Positions 1,669 through 38,841 of a DNA stretch of 40,134 bases are shown here, in pieces. Below the pieces are notes generated by a model that had not been told where the DNA came from, ran no database searches, and saw only the letters and a program-made list of their open reading frames with translations. Location: positions 1-40,134 of the forward strand of contig MNKP01000010.1 of assembly GCA_001920875.1 (NCBI GenBank). Reading direction: 5' to 3'. Made by a program: the position numbers and the translations under genes. This DNA is from Acidobacteria bacterium 13_1_20CM_2_55_15 (GTDB lineage Bacteria; Acidobacteriota; Terriglobia; 20CM-2-55-15). Positions within the stretch are counted from its first letter, which is position 1, and every line of letters begins with the position of its first letter.

Positions 1669-1822
1669 CCTCTCCCTGTGGGAGAGGTCGCCGCGTAAGC
1701 GGCGGGTGAGGGTCACAGGTTTCGCCAAATCTCTAGATCCTTATCGGCCGCGCTTTTTCTTGAGGCTTCGCGCTATCGCGCTCGCGCTTCGCGGCGCGCC
1801 GGCCTCTCCCAGAGGGAAAGGC
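1669..1822. repeat. Dispersed palindromic repeat, copy A (intergenic)
   Basis: Left arm: CCTCTCCC (1669-1676) paired with GGGAGAGG (1680-1687), then a second hairpin CGCCGC-GTAA-GCGGCG (1689-1704), then GGTGAGGGT. Right arm: a GC-rich block with cttcgcg repeats and CCTCTCCC...GAGGGAAAGGC at about 1766-1822. The same architecture recurs at 4454-4570, 19949-20076 and 38300-38402. This copy starts 2 bp after the TonB receptor stop and fills most of the gap to the next gene. The tandem hairpins could act as a terminator. No transposase is nearby, so it looks like a non-autonomous MITE/REP-like element. The outer boundaries are approximate. Confidence 0.8.
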
Positions 1823-4453: not shown

Positions 4454-4570
4454 CCCTCTCCCTCCGGCAGAGGGTAGGGTGAGAGATCGGGATTTGCCGG
4501 AAACTTTTTTGGGCTTCGCGCTATCGCGCTCGCGCTTCGCGGCGCCGCAGCCTATCCCAGAAGGAGAGGC
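4454..4570. repeat. Dispersed palindromic repeat, copy B (overlaps the 3' end of the RND gene)
   Basis: Left arm: CCCTCTCCC at 4454-4462 paired with the following GGCAGAGGG, then AGGGTGAGAG. The middle contains GGGATTTGCCGG, similar to the centre of the other copies. The right block, with cttcgcgctatcgcgctcgcgcttcgcggcg (split here across 4513-4545), is nearly identical to that of copy A, and the element ends AGAAGGAGAGGC. The stop codon of the RND pump (4521-4523) and its last 16 codons (4524-4570) lie inside the element, so this copy is partly translated. Confidence 0.8.
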
Positions 4571-7500
4571 GGACGCTGGCCCGCAGCCAGGTTGTCAGAT
4601 CATCGATGAGGGAATAAGCCACGGGACACATCAGCAGCGTCAAGAGCAGCGAGAGCATCTGCCCGCCGATAACCACAACTGCCACGGCTCGTCGCTCTTC
4701 CGCTCCCGGACCAGTTCCAAGGGCAAGCGGCAGCATACCGCCGACCAGAGCCATGGTCGTCATAAGAATTGGGCGCAGGCGGTCGCGGTTTCCTTCCAAG
4801 ATGGCTTCCAGCTTCGGCATTCCTTCGGCCCGCAAATCATTCATGTGATCGATCTGGAGAATGGCGTTCTTCTTCACAACTCCGAACAAAACCAGCATGC
4901 CCAGAGCGGAATAAAGATTCAAACTCTGGCCAAGCACCCAGAGCGAGAATAGGGCGAAGGGAACAGAAATCGGCAGGGCCAACAAAATCGTGAAAGGGTG
5001 TGTGAGGCTCTCGAAGAGCGACGCGAGAATCATGTACATGAAGACAACGGATAAAGCAAATGCGATGAGAAACTCTTTGAACGTTCGCTCCAGTTCCTTC
5101 CCGCGTCCAGTGACCAATACGGAATAGCCGGCGGGCATGTTCAGTTGGCGGGCGGCCTCGAGGAGGGCCTGGTTGCGGTCGGCGGTACCGTATCCTGGTG
5201 CAACGGATGCTTGCAAGGTGATTTGCCGCTCCCGGTCAAAACGACTAATCTGAGAGACGCTTTGCGTGGGTACAACGCGAACGAGATTATCGAGCCGGAT
5301 GAGTTTCCCGGTCCTTGAAGGCACATAGAGACGGGAAATGGTATCGAGATCATTGCGAGAACCTTCAGCGAGTCTCAATTCGACATCGTATTCCTGATTC
5401 ACCGATGTGTCATGGAACCGTGAAACCTTTTCGTCGCCGCCGACCATGATCCTCATCGCCGAAGCAATATTCGCTACATCGGTCTCGAGATCTGCGGCGC
5501 GCTGGCGGTCGATTTGCAGGTGCAATTCCGGCCGGTTCAATTGTAGCGAAACTTGCGCATCCAACAGTCCCAGTTCGGGGCCGCGTGCGGCGAGAGCCTC
5601 TCCGTACTGGACGAGTTTCTGAATATCCGGCCCACGAAGCGTTAAATTGATATCCGTTCTTCCCCCGACGCTGAGATTGATCGATTGAATATTATTGACC
5701 TGAAACTTCAGATCGCGAAGCTGCGCCAGTTCGCGGCGCACATTTGTCATTACCTCACGCTGGCTGTAGTTATGACGAAAGGCCCCGAAAGGATCGGCAT
5801 GAATGACGCCGTTCATCAAACGCACCCAAGAGAACACGCGTTCTTCGTGCGGAACGAGCTGCACGTAGATTCGGCCGGAGCTAAGCGTTCCGCTGTAATC
5901 TCCTCCTGACGTGCTGGCTATTACCTTTACTCCCCGCACAGCGCGTACTTTGTCTTCGATCATCTTCATGACGTCGTCCACTGCAGCCAGGCTCAGCCCT
6001 TCGGGTGGGGTCACGCGAACTTCGAATTGGCCATCGTCAACGTTGGTCGGCAAGTAGTCCTGACGAATCAAACGATAGGTCGGAACAGCCAGGGTTATGA
6101 CGCCCAACCCAACGACGGCGATAGCAAATCGATGTTTCATCGAAAATTTCAGGCTTGCCATATAACCCGCATCGATCCACCGATAGAAGCCCCGCCGGGA
6201 CCGCGCCCCGTCATGGCCGCCTTCGGCCCCGGAGACGCGCAACATTCGCGCACACATCATTGGAGTCAGCGTGAAGGAGATCAACAAACTGACCAGCACC
6301 GCTGCAGCCGCAGTGATTCCGAATTGATAGAGGAAGCGTCCGGCAATGCTCGACATAAAGGACACGGGTATGAAAATAACGACGAGGCTGAGAGTCGTGG
6401 CCAGTACCGCATGCCCGATGTCCGCTGTCGCGACACGGGCGGCCTCAAAGGATTCCAGTTTCTTCTCTTCCATGAATCGGAATGTGTTTTCGAGGACCAC
6501 CAGGGCATCATCGATAACAATGCCTACCATGAGGACCAGCGCTAACATGGTCACGCTGTTCAACGTAAAATGCAGCGCCCACATCGCCCCAAAAGCGGCG
6601 GTCAAGGACGACGGAATCGCCACCGCGGCAATGACCATGGCGCGCCAGTTGCGCATGAAGAGAAACACCACGAGGCTGGCTAGAATGCTGCCCACAATCA
6701 AATGGATATTGATTTCGTGGAGGGCCGCGTAGATAAATCCGGATTGGTCTTCCAGCAACTGCAGCTTCACGTCCGGAGGAATCTGCGAGGCGACGCGGCC
6801 TAAAGCCTGTTTGACGCCTGCGATCACAGCAACTGTATTCGCTCCTGACTGGCGCCGAATTTCGAGCGTGACCGTTGGCTTTCCGTTCAACCGAACGGAC
6901 GAGCGCTGTTCCTTGGTGCCGTCTTCGGCCCATCCGACATCCCTGATGCGAACCGGCGCGCCGTTGATTGTTGTGACGACGAGATCGTTAAAATCCCGCG
7001 AGCTGGCCATTCGTCCAATGGTCCTCAGATTTCGCTCTGAGGTGCCGGAGGTCACATTGCCTCCCGGAACGTCAACGTTTTGCCGGACAATCGCATCGCG
7101 GACAGCGTTAATCGGAAGCTGGTAGGCGGCTAATCTATCGGGATCGACCCAGATGTTAATCGCGCGGTCCAGGCCGCCGTTAATCCGGACTTCGCCCACG
7201 CCGGGACTGCGCTCCAGTTGTTGCCGGATGACCTTATCCGCCAGTTCCGTCAATTCACGCACGGGCCGGTCGCTGATCAGCGCAATGGAAATCGAGGGAT
7301 TCTGGTCGCTGTTGCTCTTTGTAATCGTCGGGGGATCCGCGTCCGGAGGCAACAAGCGAATAACTGTGGCAACGCGATCACGCACATCTTGAATTGCCGT
7401 CTCGATATTCCGATCAAGATTGAAGGTAGGAAATACTCCCGCCGTACCCTGGCCCGAGGTGGAACGCAATTCGGCCAAATCTTCAACAGTGTTTACCGCC

Positions 7501-7709
7501 TCCTCCAGAATTTGAGTAATCGAAACTTCAAGTTCCTCGGGTGACGCGCCAGGCAGAAATGTACGGACCTGGATTAAAGGAAGCTCAACATCCGGATGTT
7601 TGTCCACGTCCAAGTGGAAATAGCTGACCACGCCGACGACGACAAGGAACAGCACAATCATCGACGCGAAGACGGGAAGACGGATGCATAGCTCAGCCAG
7701 TTTTTGCAA
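4521..7709 (-). CDS. RND efflux pump, inner-membrane subunit (AcrB/MdtC-like, HAE1)
   Basis: 1062 aa, close to the usual size of hydrophobe/amphiphile efflux RND transporters. It is the proton-driven drug or solute pump that works with the fusion protein encoded just upstream. The N-terminal helix (residues about 10-30) is followed by the porter domain starting near DKHPDVELPLIQVRT. The TM4 proton-relay motif is GIVIDDALVVLEN with Asp400 and Asp401, and a second six-helix block occupies roughly 860-1040. The start is a TTG at 7709 with AAGGAG 9 bp upstream; MQKLAELCIRLPVF matches the family N-terminus, and no ATG fits. It is 21 bp downstream of the fusion protein gene, so one operon. No outer-membrane TolC-like gene is visible. 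The last 16 residues (RLSFWDRLRRREARAR) come from repeat copy B and replace the normal tail. Confidence 0.95.
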   Translation of the reverse strand: MQKLAELCIRLPVFASMIVLFLVVVGVVSYFHLDVDKHPDVELPLIQVRTFLPGASPEELEVSITQILEEAVNTVEDLAELRSTSGQGTAGVFPTFNLDRNIETAIQDVRDRVATVIRLLPPDADPPTITKSNSDQNPSISIALISDRPVRELTELADKVIRQQLERSPGVGEVRINGGLDRAINIWVDPDRLAAYQLPINAVRDAIVRQNVDVPGGNVTSGTSERNLRTIGRMASSRDFNDLVVTTINGAPVRIRDVGWAEDGTKEQRSSVRLNGKPTVTLEIRRQSGANTVAVIAGVKQALGRVASQIPPDVKLQLLEDQSGFIYAALHEINIHLIVGSILASLVVFLFMRNWRAMVIAAVAIPSSLTAAFGAMWALHFTLNSVTMLALVLMVGIVIDDALVVLENTFRFMEEKKLESFEAARVATADIGHAVLATTLSLVVIFIPVSFMSSIAGRFLYQFGITAAAAVLVSLLISFTLTPMMCARMLRVSGAEGGHDGARSRRGFYRWIDAGYMASLKFSMKHRFAIAVVGLGVITLAVPTYRLIRQDYLPTNVDDGQFEVRVTPPEGLSLAAVDDVMKMIEDKVRAVRGVKVIASTSGGDYSGTLSSGRIYVQLVPHEERVFSWVRLMNGVIHADPFGAFRHNYSQREVMTNVRRELAQLRDLKFQVNNIQSINLSVGGRTDINLTLRGPDIQKLVQYGEALAARGPELGLLDAQVSLQLNRPELHLQIDRQRAADLETDVANIASAMRIMVGGDEKVSRFHDTSVNQEYDVELRLAEGSRNDLDTISRLYVPSRTGKLIRLDNLVRVVPTQSVSQISRFDRERQITLQASVAPGYGTADRNQALLEAARQLNMPAGYSVLVTGRGKELERTFKEFLIAFALSVVFMYMILASLFESLTHPFTILLALPISVPFALFSLWVLGQSLNLYSALGMLVLFGVVKKNAILQIDHMNDLRAEGMPKLEAILEGNRDRLRPILMTTMALVGGMLPLALGTGPGAEERRAVAVVVIGGQMLSLLLTLLMCPVAYSLIDDLTTWLRASVRLSFWDRLRRREARAR

Positions 7710-19171: not shown

Positions 19172-19945
19172 ATGACACGGCTCCTGGAAGGCAAAACCGG
19201 CCTTATTATGGGCATCGCCAACAAGCGCAGCATCGCTTGGGGAGTTGCCAATTCCGTCAATTCCGCGGGCGCTCGGCTCATTCTCACGCATCAAAATGAA
19301 CGGCTTGGAGAAAATGTCCGGGAATTGGCGCCGCTTTTGAACAATCCGATGGTACTTCCATGCGACGTAGCGAGCGACGAACAAATCCAGGCACTCATGG
19401 ATCGCATACGCGAGGAAGCCGGCCATTTAGATTTTCTCGTCCATGCCCTCGCATACGCACCGCGTGAGGCGCTATCCGGAATGTACGCTGAAACCAAGAG
19501 GGCGGATTTCGCGGTTGCGCTCGACGTCAGCGCGTATTCGCTGGCTGCAATTTCTCGAGCCGCTTTGCCACTCATGCAGGACCGTCAGGCCAGCATCGTC
19601 ACACTGACGTATTTCGGGAGCGAACGCGTCATACAAAATTACAACGTCATGGGTGTGGCTAAGGCAGCGCTGGAAGCATCGGTTCGCTACCTGGCCAACG
19701 ATTTAGGCCCACAAGGAATACGTGTCAATGCGATCTCCGCGGGACCCATCAAAACACTGGCATCTTCCGCCGTTAGCGGAATTTCCAACATGATCAAGCT
19801 GCACGCCGAACGCGCCCCTCTGCGCAAGCAGGTCGATATCGAGGAGGTCGGCGATACCGCGTTGTTCCTCGTCAGCCCGCTTTCCCGTGGTATTTCCGGG
19901 GAAGTGATCTACGTGGATGGCGGATATCACATCTTAGGCGTCTGA
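19172..19945 (+). CDS. fabI: Enoyl-[acyl-carrier-protein] reductase (NADH)
   Basis: 257 aa. Short-chain dehydrogenase-fold enzyme that performs the last reduction of each fatty-acid elongation round (FAS II). FabI-specific features: [17 protein letters not shown] (10-26) in place of the usual Gly-rich SDR loop, [11 protein letters not shown], and catalytic Tyr147 (TYFGS), Tyr157 and Lys164 in the Y-x6-K spacing [25 protein letters not shown] and [16 protein letters not shown] complete the family pattern, and the length is standard. The promoter region is shared with ilvNCB and holds the 24-bp palindrome. Repeat copy C starts 3 bp after the stop. The repeat-derived tail of the radical SAM gene overlaps the fabI 3' end by 19 bp. 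Confidence 0.96.
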
Positions 19946-21027
19946 GAGCCCCCTCCCCCGCTGGGAGAGGGCGGCGCGGCAGCCGCAGGCTGGCGCGCCG
20001 GGCGAGGGTACAGGATTTGGAAAGACCCGACACCCTCACCCGGCGCTTCGCGCCGGCCTCTGCCAAAGGGAGAGGCTATCTCCTGTGGATCTCGCCAGTG
20101 ATCAATGACGGATATCTTCTGAACGCATCCGACAGTACAGTGAGGCGCGCACGTTTTTTTGGTGAAATATTCCCGCTCGATGTCGGCGAAAGTGTATTGT
20201 TCGAGCGGGATGCCAGGATAGCCGCGTTGTTGGGAGCAGTAATGGACGAGGCCGTCTTCGCAAATGTACAAATAGCGGGCACCGGCGCGGCATCGCCAAT
20301 CATTCGGTTTGCCGCGGGCGAGATTTTCCTGGAACCAATGTAGACGGCTGTAGCTGTGCTTGCCATAGGTCTTGATTTCGCGATAGACGCGTTCTTCGCG
20401 GCGGTTCAACGGTTTCACCGAGCCCGTGCCGTCGTGAATGATGCCGAGGGAACTGGCGAAACCGAGATCCACAGCGCGTCTCGTAATGACCTCGGCGTCT
20501 TCAGGATTGCGAATACCGCCGCCGATCACAGAATTGATGTTTACAGCGAAGTCAGCCAACGCGGCAAGATACTGGAGTTTCTTGTCCAGGACTTTCAGGC
20601 TTTTTTTGGAAACATCGTCCGGCTCAATGTTATCAATGCTGATTTGAAGGTGTTCGAGTCCGGCTTCATTCAACGCGACAATTTTCTTTGGCGTCAGTAA
20701 GTATCCGTTAGTGATCAGTCCGGCGATCATTCCGTGATGCCGGATTCGTCGGATGATGGCTTCGATGTCCGGATGCATCAAGGGCTCGCCGCCACTGATC
20801 GTCACGATGGCGGTTTTCAAATACGCAAGCCTGTCGATGCGGCGCACCATTTCATCGGTTGGAACAGGTGGTGAAAAGTCGTCGTATTCGTTGCAATAGG
20901 CGCAAGCGAGATTACACCGGCGGATCGGAACGATGTGGGCCAGGAGAACATGCTTAGTGGACACCAATCCTCGAACAATCATCTGGATTTCGCGGCATCG
21001 CAACCGGAGCTTCTTTGACTGCTTCAT
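19927..21027 (-). CDS. Radical SAM protein with SPASM/Twitch-like auxiliary cluster
   Basis: 366 aa. The radical SAM cluster motif CNLACAYC has Cys38, Cys42 and Cys45; SGGEP is at 78-82 and the TNG turn near 106-108. The C-terminal region has Cys246-x12-Gly259-x4-Cys264 followed by Cys293, Cys297 and Cys301, the arrangement expected for an auxiliary [4Fe-4S] cluster of the SPASM/Twitch type. It should generate a 5'-deoxyadenosyl radical, and relatives modify peptides, sugars or lipids. No precursor peptide or partner gene is apparent, so the substrate is unknown. The recognisable protein ends near residue 316 (WRDPQE). The final 50 residues ([16 protein letters not shown] and onward) are translated from repeat copy C. 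Confidence 0.85.
19949..20076. repeat. Dispersed palindromic repeat, copy C (translated as the radical SAM tail)
   Basis: Left arm: CCCCTCCCCC..GGGAGAGGG (from 19949), then a GC-rich hairpin and CGGGCGAGGG. The centre is acaggatttggaaag, and the right arm is CACCCTCACCCGGCG-CTTCG-CGCCGG followed by CCTCTGCCAAAGGGAGAGGC. It lies between fabI and the radical SAM gene but is open on the minus strand throughout, so it supplies about 43 residues of that protein. Possibly also a bidirectional terminator for the convergent genes. Confidence 0.85.
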
Positions 21028-36120: not shown

Positions 36121-38841
36121 TTACAAATTGTCTCCGGAAAGCATTAGTACTTCTTTCCGTAGCACATTCGTAATCGCCCCGTAAGGATCGCTAGCTTGTG
36201 CGAAACTCTTCGGATCGATCGGCTTTCCGAAATGCAATTCGACTGGGTGGAACCGGAAACCACCCCCGCGCGGCCAAGCTTCGAATGTTCCCCGAATTCC
36301 CACTGGCACAATCGGGACGCCTAGCTCAAAAGCTAAGATTGCCGCGCCTTTCTTGAATTCTTGAACGTGGCCATCGATGGAACGTGTGCCCTCCGGAAAA
36401 ATGAGCAGCACGCGGCCGTACTTCAGGCCCATGGCGCCAAGCTGCATCGCACGGATGAGATTGACGTTCGGATCAATTGCGACGATGTTGCACACTTTGG
36501 CCAGACGCCGTGAAAACGCATTGTCCCAATAATCACTGTACCCATGGATGAACATGTTGTATATGACACGCCGAGGCAGAATCGCCGCCAGCAGAGGACC
36601 GTCAAGAAACGATTCGTGATTTGGGCAAATGAGGAAGGGCATTCTCTGGGGCAAGTTTTCGAGGCCATAATATCGGAGACGGAAAAAGATTCGTGAAAGC
36701 AGTTTCACGATGCGCATGGTGACAAAAGCAAAGGGATCCAGAAGGTACCTTTTATTTAGAACGTAATGCCGATTCAATTCATCGCCGGGCGGAACGTTGA
36801 GAATCTCTTTCCAAGTCCAGCCGCCCGCGGATTCCGCCGCCGATGCGGCCTCGAAGGCCTCTATTAATTCACCGAGCGTGAATATTCGGGCAGCCTTGTG
36901 CTCGGCGATATTCACACCGAGGCGTGCTTCCGCCAAGGACAGAAGTTCGACACGGCTGAGCGAGTCGTACGCAAGGTCGAGTTCGATGTTCATTCGAGGA
37001 TCAAGCGGTCCTACTTCCGGTTTCGTTTCGCGGACGAGTTTGGCAACGGTGGCGCCCACCTTTTCCTTAAACCGCGGATGGTCTTCGCCGGCCGGCTGCG
37101 CCGGGTTATCGGCGCGCATTTTTCGGCGCTCCAATTCCTCCGTCTGGATTTCGAAGCGTTTTAACTTGCGAGTGACGGTACGAGCAAAAGGCTCGTTTCG
37201 TACCGAAAGCGAGTGAATGCGGTAATACGTAGGTAGCTGCTTTGACAGGTTCTCAATGTCGAACCGGATCATCTCCATAATGGCGGTTTGCCCGCGGCGG
37301 CGAAATTCGTCCATTTCGGGGACAACCATGGCATGAAGAATTTCGTTCGCCGGAGTGTGGTCGTCCTCGGGAATCCCGACGATACAGATCTCTTTAATGA
37401 ACGGCGACTGCGAGTAGTGCGTCTCGAGTTCTTCGGGGTACACGTTTTTCCCATTTGCCAACACGATCACATCTTTGCTGCGGCCGGTGATCGAGAGAGC
37501 GCCAGCGGCGTCGATAAAGCCGAGATCCCCCGTATGCAACCAGCCGTCGAGTATCGTTTCGGAGGTCTGATCAGGCGCACGGTAGTATCCCTTCATCAAC
37601 ACTGGACCCCGGACCCAAACTTCACCGATCCCTTCGTGATTCGGCGAATCGATTCGGACCGTTACGCCCCGAAGTGGTATCCCAACGGTTCCGATATGAT
37701 TGTCGCCGACTGGCGTGATCGTTGCCGCAGCGGACGTTTCTGTTAATCCATATGCCTGCAGCACTGTGTACCCAAGGTCGTGAAGATCCTGCGCAATCCG
37801 GGCCTCGAATCGGGAGCCGCCACTGGCCAGCAACCACAGATCTGGGCCGATCGCGTTGTGAATTTTTGAGAAAAATTTGCGACGCACAGCCGGCTTGTTG
37901 ATCCGTTTGGCGATTGCTTTCATCGCCCCAAACAACACTCGCATATAGAACGGCCGCGAGTCGACCTGGGAAAAGATTCGTTTGTGAAGAACATAAAAGA
38001 ACTGGGGAACGCAAACGAACAGCGTGATGCGGTGGCGGTGAAACGCATCAATGATCCGCTGCGGCGAGATCGAATCTAAAAAAACGACGGCGGCTCCCGC
38101 GCATAACGGGCCTAGGGCATTTGCAATGAGCGGAAGAACGTGAGAAAACGGCAGGACCGAGAGAATACGATGATTCGGAGTAATCTCGAGCAATTCGATG
38201 GCTCCACGAATTTCATGGTTCAAATTGTCGAAGGTCAGTTCCACACCTTTCGGGTTGCCTGTGGTGCCGGAGGTGTAAACAATGATGGTCGTATCGCTGC
38301 TCTCCCCTTGGGAGAGGGCGGCGTAGAGCGCCGCCGGGTGAGGGTCACGAATTTCGGCAAAACCAGTGCCCTCGCCTCTGCCGGGGGGAGAGGCGAGGGC
38401 GCACTTTAGTTCTCTACACACCCGTTCGGCCTTCTCCCAGTTCTGCTCGTCTGCGACGATCATCCTGCAGCCGGCATGCTGCGCGATAAGGCGAAGGGAA
38501 TTTTCCGGTAGAGTGGTTGCGAGAGGGACTGTCACAGCGCCCATCCTCATGGCACCTAACAGCACGAATACCCACTGAGGAATATTCTCCATGAGGATGC
38601 CGACCTTATCGCCACGCTGGATGCCATGGTGCTGGAAGTCCATTACAATCGCGTTGACGTGATCGAGCACATCAGCGTACCGATGCTCCTCAACCCCGTC
38701 CCGGCGGTCGACCGCAAATGCCAATTGATTCGGAAATCGCGCGGCCCATTCTTCGAGACGATCGAAGACCCACCGCGCGGGTAGGTCGGCGGTGACTGGA
38801 GGACCGGAAATTTCGGTCAGGAAACCCATACGCGCTAGCAT
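36121..38841 (-). CDS. Acyl-CoA/acyl-ACP synthetase-ACP-acyltransferase (PlsC) fusion with an in-frame repeat insertion
   Basis: 906 aa, three domains. The AMP-binding domain (about 20-565) has P-loop IVYTSGTTGNPKG (187-199), YGLTE (364-368), TGD (437-439), the KNVYPEE hinge and a C-terminal catalytic Lys in RTVTRKLKR. The acyl carrier protein-like domain (about 595-668) has LAYDSLSRVELL, whose Ser627 is the probable phosphopantetheine site. The PlsC acyltransferase (about 715-890) has NHESFLD (His742, Asp747) and FPEGTRS (815-821). It probably activates a fatty acid, loads it on its own carrier and transfers it to lysophospholipid or a similar acceptor; the E. coli Aas enzyme has related parts in the opposite order. 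Residues ~147-181 are encoded by repeat copy D. The start could be ATG 38841 or Met5 at 38829. Confidence 0.9.
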   Translation of the reverse strand: MLARMGFLTEISGPPVTADLPARWVFDRLEEWAARFPNQLAFAVDRRDGVEEHRYADVLDHVNAIVMDFQHHGIQRGDKVGILMENIPQWVFVLLGAMRMGAVTVPLATTLPENSLRLIAQHAGCRMIVADEQNWEKAERVCRELKCALASPPGRGEGTGFAEIRDPHPAALYAALSQGESSDTTIIVYTSGTTGNPKGVELTFDNLNHEIRGAIELLEITPNHRILSVLPFSHVLPLIANALGPLCAGAAVVFLDSISPQRIIDAFHRHRITLFVCVPQFFYVLHKRIFSQVDSRPFYMRVLFGAMKAIAKRINKPAVRRKFFSKIHNAIGPDLWLLASGGSRFEARIAQDLHDLGYTVLQAYGLTETSAAATITPVGDNHIGTVGIPLRGVTVRIDSPNHEGIGEVWVRGPVLMKGYYRAPDQTSETILDGWLHTGDLGFIDAAGALSITGRSKDVIVLANGKNVYPEELETHYSQSPFIKEICIVGIPEDDHTPANEILHAMVVPEMDEFRRRGQTAIMEMIRFDIENLSKQLPTYYRIHSLSVRNEPFARTVTRKLKRFEIQTEELERRKMRADNPAQPAGEDHPRFKEKVGATVAKLVRETKPEVGPLDPRMNIELDLAYDSLSRVELLSLAEARLGVNIAEHKAARIFTLGELIEAFEAASAAESAGGWTWKEILNVPPGDELNRHYVLNKRYLLDPFAFVTMRIVKLLSRIFFRLRYYGLENLPQRMPFLICPNHESFLDGPLLAAILPRRVIYNMFIHGYSDYWDNAFSRRLAKVCNIVAIDPNVNLIRAMQLGAMGLKYGRVLLIFPEGTRSIDGHVQEFKKGAAILAFELGVPIVPVGIRGTFEAWPRGGGFRFHPVELHFGKPIDPKSFAQASDPYGAITNVLRKEVLMLSGDNL
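38300..38402. repeat. Dispersed palindromic repeat, copy D (inside a coding sequence, in frame)
   Basis: Left arm: CTCTCCCCTTGGGAGAG at 38300-38316, then GGCGGCG-TAGAG-CGCCGCC (a hairpin) and GGGTGAGGGTCACGAATTTCGGC, given here in parts. Right arm: CCTCGCCTCTGCC...GGGGAGAGGCGAGGGC. It lies wholly within the acyl-activating enzyme gene and keeps its frame, encoding ALASPPGRGEGTGFAEIRDP and onward to ALSQGE. It is read in the same phase and strand orientation as copy C. Other family members lack such a Gly/Pro/Arg-rich segment here as far as I recall. Confidence 0.88.

Follow-up and report, generated by a model that had tools for sequence, protein, structure and literature searches.

In-frame copies of a TM/boxC-type palindromic repeat inside an acyl-CoA synthetase and other genes of a soil acidobacterium

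The window analysed here, the whole 40,134-nucleotide stretch of acidobacterial DNA, contains a fused acyl-CoA synthetase/acyltransferase gene (36121..38841, minus strand; 906 residues, open frame and Pfam) that carries, in frame within its AMP-binding domain, a composite palindromic repeat of TM/boxC type (38300..38402, minus strand), assigned from its own-genome family, its hairpins and an alignment of orthologues. In the reading that we consider very probable, a dispersed copy of this family entered a variable linker of the synthetase gene and now serves as that linker, selection having determined which insertions survived. The best documentation of palindromic repeats lying in frame comes from the intracellular Rickettsia and Wolbachia. 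The present repeat belongs to a very widespread class that is reported to be confined to intergenic DNA in Escherichia coli, and at least 16 genes of this soil bacterium contain it in frame.

A dispersed repeat in the linker of an acyl-CoA synthetase

Pfam places an AMP-binding domain at residues 29-420 of the host protein (E 3.5e-71), AMP-binding_C_3 at 457-554 and Acyltransferase at 721-849. The repeat encodes residues 147-181, roughly (A)SPPGRGEGTGFAEIRDPHPAALYAALSQGE(SS), and the open frame of 906 residues bears out the sequence-only reading, which had placed it in frame inside the synthetase domain. The P-loop region YTSGTTGNPKG (residues 189-199; 38244..38277, minus strand), which starts just after the repeat-encoded residues, is intact in translation, with Y189, S191, G192, T193, P197 and K198 occupying invariant columns among 28 homologues.

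Read in the gene direction, the element consists of a 12-bp hairpin, a short spacer, CCCTCACCC, a GGCGGCG/CGCCGCC hairpin and a CTCTCCC/GGGGAGAG hairpin. The left hairpin (GCCCTCGCCTCT/AGAGGCGAGGGC; 38366..38400, minus strand), whose 12-bp stem is seen in the fold, has diverged from the family consensus. The right half (38304..38344, minus strand; pattern match C134:38310-38344), comprising CCCTCACCC followed by the GGCGGCGctctaCGCCGCC and CTCTCCCaagGGGAGAG hairpins, is well conserved and nearly identical to many sites elsewhere in the genome. Peptides derived from the repeat are of the PSPSGRGR and DPHPA..RPLPEGEG types, and annotators should be warned that they stem from the repeat and not from conserved domains. 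The synthetase copy is presumably translated, with ...CALASPPGR and DPHPAALYAALSQGESSDTTIIVYTSGTTGNPK among the expected peptide sequences.

The family occupies about 62-72 places in the genome: a BLAST search with the repeat gives 63 matches, and the pattern CCCTCACCC-N3-33-CCTCTCCC matches 76 times in the 3.44-Mb assembly, against 0 matches for the reversed pattern. Both searches mark the repeat as genome-wide; four copies, the number given in the sequence-only reading, lie in the window. The three other copies, given without strand, comprise an intergenic one (1670..1822) that no called gene overlaps, one lying over the 3′ end of an AcrB-type pump gene (4454..4571; gene 4521-7709, minus strand), to which it gives a short tail, and one within the 3′ end of a radical-SAM gene (19950..20077; gene 19927-21027, minus strand), where the conceptual translation includes ...PSPSGGGG. 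In the latter two, the repeat is read in frame at the C-terminal end of the gene; gene ends overlapping a repeat copy recur elsewhere in the genome. Rfam returned no match to the repeat above its curated thresholds.

The sequence-only reading had the repeat adding about 34 residues to the enzyme and expected an alignment gap in homologues at residues 147-181. Alignment with orthologues from the genus, family and class contradicts this: the gap is absent, and every orthologue holds a hypervariable linker between the strand ending at about residue 146 and the P-loop strand. The orthologue of the sister species G003 (about 83% identical) has 36 residues at the site, three fewer than the 39 found here and unrelated in sequence, and the linkers of other orthologues measure about 25-39 residues. 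The solved structure of MatB, a malonyl-CoA synthetase, aligns across the same stretch with small gaps only and has a linker of similar length. Since these linkers are of like length, the repeat appears either to have taken the linker's place or to have been inserted while the old linker was lost; the orthologues include no clean empty site. In the AlphaFold model (mean confidence 85.5), confidence falls to 47-56 over residues 151-180 and is mostly above 85 on either side: the model shows a low-confidence loop flanked by confident strands, the picture that a flexible surface linker would give.

The G003 linker is not a repeat within the G003 genome, as judged from a search of that genome, and folds into hairpins in the same order as the synthetase copy (z -3.0). 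The same linker goes unrecognised by an HMM of the repeat and aligns with the synthetase copy at only p ~0.06; no claim is made that the two species have the synthetase insertion in common. Elsewhere in the genus, the G001 orthologue (L039, G001:C375) appears frameshifted at a repeat-like linker, through either a real disruption or an error of the draft assembly. In the orthologues L035-L039, the same linker before YTSGTTG holds a second, unrelated and AT-richer repeat of GAAATCCGAAATCC type (G006:C1:113573-113641), whose best other genomic match has an E-value of 2e-5 and whose matches often form inverted pairs about 50 bp apart. The linker before YTSGTTG may be a recurrent landing site for repeats.

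In-frame copies in other genes and in relatives

To place the family relative to genes, 72 repeat clusters were taken with their flanks and scored for coding potential by a hexamer model trained on the same genome, the gene calls coming from this custom scorer applied to a fragmented assembly that is 82% complete. Among 62 pattern-defined copies, 15 lie well inside genes with a strong coding signal on both sides and are in frame by construction of the test. Manual inspection added a sixteenth, in CobB, so that at least 16 of the 62 are in frame inside apparently intact genes, in several frames and on both strands; the search of the parent genome for in-gene copies, put forward with the sequence-only reading, thus came out in its favour. 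The hosts, named by Pfam for six and by eye for the remainder, include squalene-hopene cyclase, MutS2, an ABC-F ATPase, an MFS transporter, HisG, homocysteine methyltransferase/MTHFR, GcvP, an amidase, MurF, CobB and two spermidine-synthase-like proteins. An additional copy, in NFACT, was found by BLAST only, and a weak intragenic candidate (C187:9164) was dropped, its coding signal stopping at the repeat.

Sixteen copies with coding flanks on the same strand were also inspected for genes split by the repeat, and none was seen, the assignment being made by eye: 15 of the flank pairs belong to two distinct neighbours or show a left frame that is doubtful, and the remaining one is CobB. Neighbours separated in this way include HscB/HscA, MreC/MreD and IspG/glutamate dehydrogenase. 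Copies are strongly depleted in coding DNA relative to a coding density of 92%. Selection against insertion into genes, from which in-frame copies escape, accounts for this scarcity. At about 74% G+C, the repeat leaves about five of six frames open, which makes it a forgiving insert. Among the in-gene copies the core motif is read in five different ways, on both strands.

In ten genes compared with their orthologues (genomes G001-G005 and G008), the repeat lies in linkers or loops of variable length. The HisG of this species is longer by about 25 residues that none of the compared relatives has, and in GcvP the repeat occupies, as a replacement, a stretch that differs in relatives. In MutS2, the ABC-F ATPase and one spermidine-synthase-like protein, G003 has the repeat at the corresponding position, and it holds decayed traces in MTHFR, NFACT, the amidase and probably squalene-hopene cyclase; several insertions therefore predate the species split.

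The pattern is present in 17 of 61 genomes (the genome studied and 60 relatives), at none to 445 matches per genome. Copies lie in genes more often in the genus (22 of 78) than in three other genomes of the class (6 of 87; p 3e-4), a comparison in which manual inspection, applied to the genome studied and not to the others, raised its in-gene count by one. In G003, 5 of 12 copies lie in frame within genes. The pattern abounds in two genomes of the class: G056, with 445 matches, has one in-gene copy among 28 sampled, and G027, with 145, has 3 among 39. Within the genus, G001, a different species, has an in-frame TM copy in an apparent isoleucyl-tRNA synthetase, named by eye (G001:C331:16465; L261).

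Competing explanations

That a GC-rich linker, rich in Pro, Gly and Arg, should resemble the repeat by chance is conceivable given that the linker is hypervariable across all orthologues, and is nevertheless scarcely credible here. The right half of the synthetase copy is identical at 24 of 24 bases to another genomic copy (BLAST), E-values between the synthetase copy and dispersed copies go down to 8e-9, its entire modular order is common to copies of the family, and its fold (-61 kcal/mol, z about -5) is strong. The contrast between 76 matches and 0 for the reversed pattern, combined with the near-identical copies, makes 38300-38402 a member of a dispersed family, and chance resemblance was rejected on this search of the genome. 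A second alternative, that the insertion killed the gene and left a young pseudogene whose frame is open by accident, draws on the fact that the case for a live gene is built on sequence; we regard it as very improbable. Purifying selection acts on the gene (dN/dS ~0.125 against G003), its lineage-specific amino-acid changes show no significant excess (22 versus 13, p 0.18), its catalytic motifs are intact and invariant, and in-frame copies are also found in many other housekeeping genes. The invariant motif residues and the low dN/dS uphold the earlier statement that the rest of the enzyme is undamaged; the gene looks functional, and the enzyme is presumably active.

An unlikely explanation, less easily dismissed than these, is that the element persists on account of its DNA or RNA structure (as a triplex, a hairpin, or through a role in recombination or in mRNA), the protein merely tolerating it. 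For TM sequences, a triplex that is stable in vitro has been reported, as has their marking of unstable loci (PMC4666352). In MutS2 the stem sequences are kept in G003 while the loop has changed, and in the two genes compared, MutS2 and a spermidine-synthase-like gene, third codon positions agree with G003 more often within the element (27 of 31) than in the flanks (100 of 162; p 0.007). Such an excess could stem from constraint on the DNA or from gene conversion between copies, which would likewise raise identity; pure neutrality does not predict it for elements shared with G003. Two genes are a small basis for choosing between constraint and conversion. Against a structural role, the copies in MTHFR, NFACT, the amidase and squalene-hopene cyclase decay in G003, the host genes have no common theme, and the synthetase copy departs from the strict triplex motif, its 17-nt hairpin spacer exceeding the ITxF loop limit of 6.

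We therefore keep to a dispersed repeat turned linker, and read the repeat as a selfish or neutral element that selection has confined to in-frame positions in linkers able to tolerate it. The TM/boxC family would spread, or be copied, around the genome; one copy would have entered the synthetase gene between the strand after residue 146 and the P-loop strand; and selection would remove most insertions into genes, sparing those that are in frame, free of stops and situated where the chain forms a disordered linker or loop, so that added or exchanged residues would cost little. A bolder version, doubtful at present, makes TM/boxC an active source of linkers in this acidobacterial lineage, one that repeatedly overwrites the interdomain linkers of housekeeping enzymes and persists in frame across species, its hairpin DNA being kept by selection or gene conversion even within coding sequence. 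Insertions that outlived a species split provide a natural experiment on the conversion of short repeats into protein linkers, and the same in-gene copies also test whether the DNA structure of the repeat is selected.

Relation to known bacterial repeats

The family core, CCCTCTCCC / GGGAGAGGG / GGGTGAGGG, corresponds to the G/C-rich intrastrand triplex motif known as TM (TMECO) or boxC/PIT, described by Holder et al. 2015 in more than 260 genomes (PMC4666352). Both have the order CCCTCTCCC-loop-GGGAGAGGG-spacer-GGGTGAGGG, often as inverted pairs, and many family members, for example CCCTCACCCTACCCTCTCCC, have the short-loop (1-6 nt) form of TM; many others, including the synthetase copy, differ in that a hairpin interrupts the spacer. 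In E. coli the motif is 'always located intergenically' (PMC4666352), whereas here about a quarter of the copies lie in frame inside genes. The repeat itself thus matches a known class, and the earlier suggestion that such in-frame behaviour is little described in Acidobacteriota holds: the open-licence literature yielded no report of TM repeats in frame within genes and none of such insertions in Acidobacteriota, so that the occurrence of this class in coding sequence and the acidobacterial host are, as far as we have found, new.

Repeats translated in frame are a known kind, represented by Rickettsia palindromic elements (RPEs) and by the palindromic elements named Correia (107 bp), ERIC and Yersinia (PMC2229807). 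The last three are MITE-type repeats that, like the present repeat, can occur fused in frame to genes; as MITEs they possess terminal inverted repeats, along with TA termini or target duplications. The repeat studied here ends in hairpins, and the orthologue comparisons offer no clean empty site at base resolution. With REP/RAYT systems it has in common short dispersed hairpins, often paired. No Y1 transposase (PF01797) was found in the genome studied, which is 82% complete; the enzyme is present in most relatives, some of them without TM copies.

The closest parallel in behaviour is with RPEs and Wolbachia palindromic repeats, which are likewise roughly 100-150 bp long and occur both between genes and, at tolerated sites, in frame within conserved genes that are unrelated to one another. 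The published description of RPEs has them encode a conserved peptide (PMC10969869), whereas several frames on both strands are read here. The hosts of RPEs are obligate intracellular bacteria rather than a soil acidobacterium, and the element here often replaces a linker. The analogy with RPEs drawn in the sequence-only reading accordingly holds at genome scale, with 16 of 62 copies in frame, and breaks down in the homologue gap expected for the synthetase. The likeness in behaviour to Rickettsia palindromic elements is well supported at the scale of the genome; to judge by its match to TM and its use of frames, the repeat is probably not itself one of them.
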